From Nitrosopumilaceae archaeon (GTDB lineage: Archaea; Thermoproteota; Nitrososphaeria; Nitrososphaerales; Nitrosopumilaceae), in contig JASHNR010000001.1 in NCBI GenBank assembly GCA_030041535.1, positions 38,109 through 102,108 on the forward strand: a stretch of DNA of 64,000 bases, in the 5' to 3' direction. A model generated the notes under the pieces. The model was not told where the DNA came from and did not search any database. It was given only the letters and a program-made list of their open reading frames with translations. Positions 3,224-60,678 of the stretch are shown one piece after another; within the stretch, counting starts at the first letter, position 1; each line of letters starts with the position of its first letter. A program made the translations under genes and the position numbers.

Positions 3224-3481
3224 CTACGGGCAGCCTTCCATCTTCTGGATGAAATATCCTTTCTGTTGGATCTCGTTAGCAATTGGCTGAGGTGCACCTT
3301 GTGAGTGACAGAACTGGCACTCTTCGGTTGTAACTTTTGCTTCTGCCTCGTTTATTGTCTTGAGCCATTCTCTTGCATACTGGATTGCCTTTTGATGATC
3401 TTTTACATTTGTGATGACATCAAAGTGCATCGTATGGCCGTCCTTTGCCTCTACATATGTATCGTATACGTGAATTTCCAT
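3224..3481 (-). CDS. DUF2024 family protein
   Basis: MEIHVYDTYVEAKDGHTMHFDVIT...; recognisable DUF2024 pattern. Confidence 0.7.
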   Translation of the reverse strand: MEIHVYDTYVEAKDGHTMHFDVITNVKDHQKAIQYAREWLKTINEAEAKVTTEECQFCHSQGAPQPIANEIQQKGYFIQKMEGCP

Positions 3482-5448: not shown

Positions 5449-6375
5449 ATGACAAACTTCGAAGAAATTAAATTCCCAGCAGACTCGCTAAGACTAGTGG
5501 GATTAAAAGAAGTACTGGAGATATCAAAACCCCGTATAGTAGTTTTACTTGTAATTACCGCCGTAACATCAATGTACGCAGCCAGCAAATTGATAGGTCC
5601 GCCACTTAACTATGTTAGCCTATTACACATAATCATAGCCGGATCGCTTTCTTCAGCCGGTTCAAGTGCCCTTAATCACTATTATGATCGAGACATCGAT
5701 CTGTTGATGAAAAGAACCAGTAACCGACCAATCCCATCCGGAAGGATGTCTGCAAGAAATGTTTTGATATATGGTCTAGTTGTAAGTGCCGTCTCTGTAA
5801 TTTATGCATGGTTTACCCTGAATCCAATTTCTACATTTTTCATTGCGCTAGGAGTTTTCTTTTATGTGATAGTCTATACGGCATGGCTCAAGCGTACAAA
5901 TTCATCTAATATTGTAATTGGAGGCTTTGCTGGTAGCTGTGCTGCAATGGCAGGGTGGTCTGCTGCGACTGGCTCCATGGACATACTGGGAGCACTTGTG
6001 GGTATTCTTGTCTTTGCGTGGACTCCTTCCCACTTTTGGTGTCTTGCAATGAAGATAAGAGATGATTATGCAGAAGCACACGTTCCAATGTTGCCAGTAT
6101 TGATTGGCATGCAAAGGACATCAAAATACATACTTGTCAACACCGCAATATTGCTTCCATATTCATTGGCCCTTGTAGCATTTGGATTAGGTTACGTCTA
6201 TCTTGCAATTGCTGCAGTATCAGGTAGCCTGATGTTACTGTATCATTACAAACTGACAAAGACTCCAACTTCTGACTTTGCGTGGAAAGCCTACAAGGTG
6301 ACTGCTCCATACCTTACGATAATATTTGTAGGAATTGCACTTGATGCTGCGTTCCACTTTCCTGTGATGAAATAA
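5449..6375 (+). CDS. ctaB: Protoheme IX farnesyltransferase
   Basis: NHYYDRDIDLLMKRTSNRPIPSG prenyltransferase motif, multi-TM. Confidence 0.93.
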   Translation: MTNFEEIKFPADSLRLVGLKEVLEISKPRIVVLLVITAVTSMYAASKLIGPPLNYVSLLHIIIAGSLSSAGSSALNHYYDRDIDLLMKRTSNRPIPSGRMSARNVLIYGLVVSAVSVIYAWFTLNPISTFFIALGVFFYVIVYTAWLKRTNSSNIVIGGFAGSCAAMAGWSAATGSMDILGALVGILVFAWTPSHFWCLAMKIRDDYAEAHVPMLPVLIGMQRTSKYILVNTAILLPYSLALVAFGLGYVYLAIAAVSGSLMLLYHYKLTKTPTSDFAWKAYKVTAPYLTIIFVGIALDAAFHFPVMK

Positions 6376-58630: not shown

Positions 58631-58921
58631 GTGGTGGGGAATTTTCATGAGCAACATGGAGTTGCCTTAATGTCATGTATAGAAGTTGTCCTAATGAGAA
58701 GAAATGGCGCTAATTACCATTTGATTCAAGCCAGACTAAATGCTATCTGTAACCGAAATCTTATGGATTGTTACGAATATCCAAAATACTTGCGAGATGT
58801 ACTCAAAGAAGTATACAAAGAGAACTATGCTTCGATAATAGAGGAGATCAAATCGTATCTAGGTGACGATCTAAGCCATGAAAAAGACATTGTCGATTTT
58901 TTTAAAATTATGGAAAGTTAA
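58631..58921 (+). CDS. Small hypothetical protein
   Basis: 96-aa ORF. Confidence 0.45.
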   Translation: MVGNFHEQHGVALMSCIEVVLMRRNGANYHLIQARLNAICNRNLMDCYEYPKYLRDVLKEVYKENYASIIEEIKSYLGDDLSHEKDIVDFFKIMES

Positions 58922-59290
58922 GATTATCAACCAATTTTATGCCTGTAGAAGATCAATCATAGATTATGCAGAGTCCATTTCGGGCACTAATTGACAGTTG
59001 ATCTTATTCTTGTCTAAAATCGGTTGATAATTTTATTTTGTATTCATCACATTATATCTTCTGAGGTCATATAGAATACTGATCAATATTACTATACCAA
59101 AAACAGCAAAGAGTAATGGTATATCTATTATTAATCGGTCTGGTGTTAGGGCATTCTTCTGCATAACATAATAGGAAATTATTGAAAAGGCAGTAGTAAT
59201 AATACAAACTCTTACAATCAGATCTGTTCTTATATTGAGCATAAAAAGACAAAACGATGTAAGATTAATGAATATGTCGCATGATTGTTT

Positions 59291-59562
59291 TTTACTAGCA
59301 TTTTGAATTAAGGTAACCCATTTGTTCTCTCCTTCAACTTTGATCCCTGCTACTTCCGAAGGAGTTTTTCCATCCAAACTCATGCGTGGTCTAATATAGT
59401 TATGAAATATCTGGTAGCCTGTTAGAATTGGAGTGTCATTTATCTTCAATCAACTTATTACCTTCTCACGATCTCTAATCTCGCCATTTAATCTCTCCAT
59501 CATGTTGTTATTTCTATCCCCTTTCAAGGTGATATGGCGTTCATGGGCTACTCGAGAGTTTC
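59291..59562 (-). pseudogene. DDE transposase/integrase C-terminal remnant with internal stop
   Basis: HERHITLKGDRNNNMMERLNGEIRDREKVIS* LKINDTPILTGYQIFHNYIRPRMSLDGKTPSEVAGIKVEGENKWVTLIQNASK on minus strand. Confidence 0.8.
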
Positions 59563-59842
59563 TCTTGTGAATAATTCCTTTAAAGATGCTGACCTAATCA
59601 AGATGGTCATAGCAGAATACGATAAGGCGCCACACATGACGAAGATGAATCAAGAGTTATACGAACAACTGGCGGGTCTATCTATTACATTATCAAATAC
59701 TGTGAAAAGAATGGATTCCATTACTAAAGAAGGACGAACTATTATCCATGATTCAAAAGACTAGTTCTTTGCTTGATCAATTAGCTCCATCCCGCAACCG
59801 ATTTTATACGGATGGAGAATCCGCCTCAGGTTATACAGTACC

Positions 59843-59850
59843 CCATTTCG
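59843..59850 (+). repeat. 8-bp target site duplication CCATTTCG (left)
   Basis: Identical to 60671-60678. Confidence 0.88.
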
Positions 59851-60670
59851 TACACTGGATAGTTAGAGGGTCAAATCATTGACTTGTTTTGGTTGTAAAG
59901 AAACGGGTCATTTTTCGGTATCAAAAAGTTGGTGTAAAGTTACGGTTGAATTATTTATCTTGAATCTTCAGACCAGATTCTTGCCCACATTTCATACAAT
60001 ATGAATAAAACACTATATTCGGGCCTTTATCGATAAGTCCTAAAGTTTCACTATAGTATTCTTCTTTTGGTGTTATTTCTTTATTACATCTTTTACAGGT
60101 ATGATTTTTTCTGGCTTTCTTAAGGATAAGGATATTGCTGGCTAAAACTACTCTCCTAAATTTTTTATTTTGATATTGGTTACATTTGACATGATTATTT
60201 CTGACAAGTAATCCAAACTCCTATAAATCAAAAGCATAGAAGATTATGAATGCGAATAACGACACAGCATCCATACGGTCGTTACGTGGGTGGGGCTCTG
60301 TTTATGCTTGGATGGGTGCTTTTCGTCTTAGGGCTGAGCACTTTTCTATGCGGTTCGTCTTTGTGGGGGTCCAATTGTTTTAAGCTTGGGCTTTCAGTCG
60401 CCAGCGGCCTAGCACTTTTCGGCATAATGTTAGTTGGAGGAGGCATGTTTCTTGTGGGTCGAAGTTCAAATCGCACAGCAGATCGGAACCCCATTAGAGA
60501 GAATACCGCGTCATCTTGACAAACTAAATTACAATCTTAAAACTCATAATTTTGAAACCACCATTACCTGATCAACCGTAACTTTACACCAACTTTTTGA
60601 TACCGAAAAATGACCCGTTTCTTTACAACCAAAACAAGTCAATGATTTGACCCTCTAACTATCCAGTGTA
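59851..60670. mobile_element. 820-bp non-autonomous (MITE-like) element with perfect 99-bp terminal inverted repeats
   Basis: TIRs 59851-59949 and 60572-60670 (TACACTGGATAG...ACGGTTGA) perfectly complementary; CCATTTCG duplicated at both borders; no transposase inside. Confidence 0.93.
60250..60519 (+). CDS. Small two-TM protein carried inside the mobile element
   Basis: GGALFMLGWVLFVLGLSTFL... and VASGLALFGIMLVGGGMFLVG. Confidence 0.6.
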   Translation: MRITTQHPYGRYVGGALFMLGWVLFVLGLSTFLCGSSLWGSNCFKLGLSVASGLALFGIMLVGGGMFLVGRSSNRTADRNPIRENTASS

Positions 60671-60678
60671 CCATTTCG
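60671..60678 (+). repeat. 8-bp target site duplication CCATTTCG (right)
   Basis: Identical to 59843-59850. Confidence 0.88.

Follow-up and report, generated by a model that had tools for sequence, protein, structure and literature searches.

A transposase-less 820-bp cassette in an ammonia-oxidising archaeon as a probable deletion derivative of cargo-carrying IS6-like transposons

The window analysed here, a stretch of 64,000 nucleotides from a Nitrosopumilaceae archaeon, contains an 820-bp segment enclosed by inverted arms and by two copies of an 8-bp sequence. This locus raises the questions of what kind of element the segment represents, from which parent it is derived, and how it came to share its insertion site with a second element. 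The original prediction described a non-autonomous, MITE-like element, recently inserted or with strongly homogenised arms, that needs a helper in trans, left the family open, and proposed searches for further arms, for a transposase-bearing element with the same ends and for an empty site.

Anatomy of the element and its insertion site

The two arms are reverse-complementary at 99 of 99 positions, as predicted, and diverge at the next inner bases (Table 1); by chance, about 1e-49 perfect inverted pairs of that length would be expected in 64 kb. The proposed 8-bp target duplication is likewise present, with CCATTTCG at both borders. The second and third motif copies of the arm are 40 bp apart, and the length of 99 bp is explained by the arm ending with the last of these spaced copies. 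Such length had been regarded as unusual; it is not odd for the group, in which arm lengths of 60-110 bp are usual and the perfect arms of sister elements measure 109, 69 and 61 bp.

Table 1. Features of the locus (window positions) and delimited related transposons in the genus (asterisks in peptides, stops)
Feature	Position	Strand	Size	Remarks
Third exact CCATTTCG	58975..58982	+		left border of X'
X', older decayed element of the same group	58983..59842	.	860 bp	tips GGCACTAATTGAC.. and GGTACTGTATAACC..
IS6-like transposase remnant in X'	59282..59560	-		32% identical to G189 transposase residues 300-395
Left 8-bp target duplication CCATTTCG	59843..59850	+
Left arm	59851..59949	+	99 bp	motif blocks are conserved columns of 14 arms
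Left-arm tip TACACTGGATAGTTAGAGGGTCA	59851-59873
Left-arm subterminal motif copy GGTTGTAAAGAAACGGGTCA	59891-59910
Left-arm subterminal motif copy GGTGTAAAGTTACGGTTGA	59931-59949
Zinc-ribbon ORF, left passenger	59951..60133	-		ILILKKARKNHTCKRC...KIQDK*
Transposase 3'-end relic	60102..60159	+		..DFFWLS*G*GYCWLKLLS*; intact counterparts in G189, G180, G212, G210
Two-helix membrane-protein gene, right passenger	60250..60519	+	89 aa
Right arm	60572..60670	-		perfect reverse complement of left arm
Right 8-bp copy CCATTTCG	60671..60678	+		conserved promoter-like block (CATAGTTTATC) directly after
G189 transposon			6380 bp	duplication ACAAAATG, tip TACACTGGTAACTTGAGTGG
G180 transposons			5878 bp and 2904 bp
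G184 transposon			3710 bp
G203 transposon			2630 bp	perfect 61-bp arms
G197 transposon			5419 bp	perfect 69-bp arms
G193 transposon			6172 bp
G206 transposons				two
Own-genome transposon (G000:C30)	L163:5294-8360		3067 bp	duplication GTAAAAGA, tip GGTGCTGTACAGTTTGAGGG

A full-length transposase is absent from the interior, in agreement with the original prediction, but the interior retains 58 bp from the 3' end of a transposase gene. The description of the element as MITE-like therefore holds for the missing transposase and fails for the passenger ORFs, one of which is under purifying selection, and for the relic of the transposase gene. The selected ORF is the 89-aa membrane-protein gene (dN/dS of 0.15-0.32 in three comparisons), a homologue of which lies beside the same arm in G212. 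Another homologue, in G201:C65 (L046:2950-3261), has no arm nearby, so the gene may be a captured host gene. The stop codon of the zinc-ribbon ORF adjoins the left arm and a proper start codon is absent; this passenger was probably truncated by the deletion discussed below. No homologue of it was found in the other fetched loci, and Pfam returned no confident domain for either ORF.

The right flank, found in 34 of the 37 genus genomes searched, precedes a conserved ORF and, after it, an aminoacyl-tRNA-synthetase-like gene. When the left flank, with one copy of CCATTTCG, is joined to the right flank, the resulting sequence aligns without a break in at least seven congeneric genomes (G205, G197, G210, G212, G207, G199 and G180; 82.7% over 179 columns in G205), so that the 820 bp are an insertion which these relatives lack, and the empty site that had been sought is found. 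In G186 the site is present with no transposon end whatever. Promoter-directed insertion as a general rule was rejected, because inspection by eye of the flanks of 14 elements revealed no shared promoter-like motif.

The parent transposons and their family

A sequence search found the arms at no other place in their own genome, and the exact tip was not found in IMG/VR. About 10 genomes of the genus contain homologous arms of roughly 100 bp with 67-89% identity, in most cases singly, and the exact arm start recurs in the Thaumarchaeota archaeon isolates REEA14 and REEA70. The proposed arm search thus yields a single locus in the own genome and related elements in other genomes of the genus, and these relatives, together with the empty site, support the prediction of a recent, non-autonomous element dependent on a helper. 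The notion that all relatives possess inverted arm pairs was rejected, as most have one arm.

The transposase-bearing element with the same ends is found in G189:C17, where like arms 7.66 kb apart enclose a 458-aa protein with an IS240/IS6 DDE domain (PF13610). This transposase has an N-terminal CxC..CxH motif, which is SWIM-finger-like by eye and is not called by Pfam, followed by a zinc ribbon, the DDE domain and a C-terminal extension. Comparison with G189 identifies the conserved stretch at 60102-60177 of the window as the 3' end of a transposase gene: the G189 protein ends in ..NGKDSCWLKLLS*, while the last 19 codons survive in frame in the 820-bp element as ..*G*GYCWLKLLS*, with two stops ahead of the original one. 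The right half of the element has its counterpart in G212, where the same membrane gene and the arm come after the transposase C-terminus. The relic and these two layouts together give the structure of the element as arm, truncated left passenger, deleted transposase, right passenger and arm. Two other candidates for a second end were rejected, namely the conserved interior module, which is the transposase 3' end, and the GGTTCTGT-type tips, which belong to neighbouring stacked elements.

The comparison genomes are mostly drafts; within them, PF13610 scores above its cut-off in 19 of 37 genus genomes, and the two G189 enzymes reach 61.2 and 59.9 bits against a cut-off of 27. All nine enzymes have NF033587, the curated IS6 transposase model, as their best match and cover nearly its whole length; their scores are 95-132 bits, and only one enzyme exceeds the cut-off of 125. 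The transposase group occurs in 60 of 250 genomes of the family and in 13 of 22 genera (E <= 1e-30). A scan around the PF13610 hits of the genus for 8-bp duplications with inverted tips delimited the clean transposons of Table 1; across all fetched loci, every inverted pair of at least 24 bp with an exact 8-bp duplication bears tips of the group, and the duplication is exact in the 820-bp element and in 12 of 13 delimited relatives. In the ends a motif recurs two or three times at intervals. They measure 50-109 bp, whereas IS6 ends are typically short (about 14 bp) with a GG tip and cTGTt/caaa motifs; GG..CTGT tips occur only in some subgroups (the 820-bp element has TACACTGG), and full-length members are 2.4-7.7 kb long with passengers, unlike IS6 elements of about 0.8 kb in which the transposase is the only gene. 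The catalytic domain and the duplication therefore fit IS6, whereas size, end length, tip and cargo do not, and the family that had been left open is assigned as IS6/IS240-like, not as plain IS6.

Among described elements, the nearest comparison is with the long-transposase IS6 clades h and i (Varani et al. 2021; PMC7986276), of which clade i has transposases of about 450 aa with a zinc finger and an N-terminal extension. The present group shares with these clades the IS240/IS6 DDE domain (PF13610, with NF033587 as best match) and the 8-bp duplication; members of clades h and i measure 1.2-1.8 kb and have a GG tip on ends of only about 14 bp (PMC7986276), whereas the present group has lengths of 2.4-7.7 kb, several-motif ends, tips such as TACACTGG and passengers on both sides. 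ISDsp3 is the only passenger-bearing IS6 member in that review, alongside two MITEs of 227 and 336 bp. Like such IS6-derived MITEs, the 820-bp element lacks a transposase and has the IS6-type duplication, but the MITEs are shorter and ORF-less, while the element holds a selected gene and a transposase relic.

The cargo of the group is varied. The 7.66-kb G189 transposon contains, at L048:5951-11425, type I methylase and specificity genes and a CAP12/Pycsar-type TIR protein, which are probably anti-phage cargo. The same arm-flanked transposon also holds a TATA-binding-protein gene (PF00352, E 2e-31; L048:5323-5880), and a mobile general transcription factor is an unexpected cargo. G197 carries an AAA_15 ATPase with defence-type matches and G193 a DUF3800 protein, and the own-genome 3067-bp transposon, a member of the wider group, encodes a 393-aa transposase and a 227-aa passenger. 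A transposase-less sister cassette of the same design as the 820-bp element lies in G180 (L157:3476-5824; 2349 bp); it is flanked by CAAAATAC at either end, its arms of 109 bp are perfect, and its cargo is an aldo/keto reductase and an epimerase. Both transposase-less cassettes have perfect arms (99 and 109 bp), while those of many autonomous relatives are 67-93% identical, and a homogenising step behind the perfect arms is possible.

Taken together, this evidence makes it very probable that the 820-bp element arose by deletion from a cargo-carrying transposon with an IS6/IS240-type DDE transposase, is non-autonomous, and was mobilised in trans and stacked on X'. Three observations count against this reading: the 7.66-kb G189 relative has no matching duplication at its two ends, most relatives have a single arm, and the own genome encodes no transposase above 39% identity.

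Mobilisation and alternative explanations

The ancestor is envisaged as having the layout arm - gene(-) - transposase(+) - gene(+) - arm, from which a deletion would have removed all but the last 19 codons of the transposase together with part of the left passenger, leaving the right passenger and both ends intact. A transposase acting in trans would bind the three-motif arms, whose motifs are putative binding sites, and pair them, and the paired arms would be joined to the target with an 8-bp stagger, so that 8 bp of the target would be duplicated. The element would have landed on the 8 bp already used by the older X', giving a tandem stack directly upstream of the conserved promoter-like block. 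This mobilisation in trans is inferred from sequence comparison. A close helper is missing from the own assembly, where the only related transposase shows 39% identity across most of its length and lies between different tips; the element may therefore be stranded now.

The lack of a close helper, the single copy of the element, and the passenger stop codons which adjoin the arms in several genomes would also suit a dead relic that was inserted together with its transposase and lost it in place, its arms being kept identical by gene conversion or by another role, for example as terminators beside passenger genes. This course of events is improbable, because two stops have accumulated in the 19 relic codons while the arms and the duplication are perfect, so that the loss of the transposase looks older than the insertion, and because a cassette built in the same way, its arms perfect, is intact in G180. 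Much less probable still is a site-specific recombinase or integron-like cassette system with the 99-bp arm as recombination site: single arms do occur after small ORFs and elements do lie in tandem, but neither strand has an attC-type single-strand fold above that of shuffled sequences (z-scores 0.46 and 0.07), the 8-bp sequence varies freely between sites, and DDE transposases lie between the arms in relatives. The least credible alternative is an assembly artefact that created a false palindrome, since perfect inverted identity over 99 bp in a 66-contig draft genome is offset by arm limits that match those in independent genomes, by the exact duplication and the empty sites, by interior halves that differ, and by arms shorter than common sequencing read lengths.

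As a deletion derivative that carries a selected 89-aa gene and a truncated zinc-ribbon ORF, the 820-bp element resembles a mobile insertion cassette rather than an empty MITE, and by analogy may work like one. The MIC231 cassettes of Bacillus cereus, of which MIC231A1 was mobilised in trans (Chen et al. 1999, as summarized in PMC3913671), likewise have inverted IS-type ends around passengers, no transposase and a target duplication. Their ends are those of IS231, of the IS4 family, whereas the present cassettes are IS6-like and have perfect arms of 99-109 bp.

Stacking on a shared 8-bp site

The sequence CCATTTCG is present three times in the same orientation (Table 1), and the tips of X' are unlike those of the 820-bp element, so that two unlike elements occupy the same 8 bp. 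At this hotspot a group tip stands directly before the 8 bp in 10 of 29 relatives, which fits both shared ancestry and repeated insertion. Across element flanks, scoring with a leave-one-out tip matrix finds another transposon tip at a distance of exactly 8 bp in 8 of 28 cases against about 0.04 expected (random rate at that tip score, 0.0013), and offset 8 exceeds all other offsets on average. A T-A-T-B-T layout is found twice in G180, in L157 (CAAAATAC at 3468, 5825 and 11711) and in L158 (TGATGGTA at 5872, 8784 and 9604), and is partly present in G189; such exact 8-bp triples suggest that one element after another inserted at the same 8 bp. Within the window, a further transposon end (TCAACCAATTTTATG...GCAGAGT) probably lies at 58922-58982, after the stop of the ORF at 58631-58921, and the stack may thus extend leftward. 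A second hotspot was observed in L158, L164 and L166 (G180, G193 and G197): the left flank ..CAAATAATAAGTGTTT is common to all three genomes and runs straight into TGATGG/TGATAG duplications that belong to different elements.

It may be proposed, tentatively and with somewhat more doubt than confidence, that IS6-like transposases in these archaea take a resident transposon end, even one of another subfamily, as a guide and insert exactly on the 8-bp duplication beside it, and that cassettes with or without a transposase thereby build islands which share one 8-bp sequence; such islands would be a DDE-transposase counterpart of integron arrays and would collect defence, metabolic and regulatory genes. 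As in tandem casposons and Tn7 islands (PMC6563490, PMC4046053), several elements accumulate at one target site; those systems use Cas1 or Tns proteins and a defined target, whereas the present stacks involve a single IS6-like transposase, variable 8-bp sites and unlike tips.

IS6 elements are known mainly as simple insertion sequences of 0.8 kb that shuffle resistance genes in bacteria, and a 2019 survey of thaumarchaeal mobile elements describes IS-like transposons as one- or two-gene units (PMC6563490). In ammonia-oxidising archaea, IS6-like transposases are found in multi-gene transposons with restriction, TIR-effector and metabolic cargo, and in transposase-free cassettes derived from them. 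No description of these transposons was found in the open-access literature; they are a little-described group, whose restriction, TIR and other cargo is unusual for IS6. The reuse of the same 8 bp by unlike elements offers a specific instance in which end-directed insertion can be put to the test, and also a way in which gene islands of archaea could expand.
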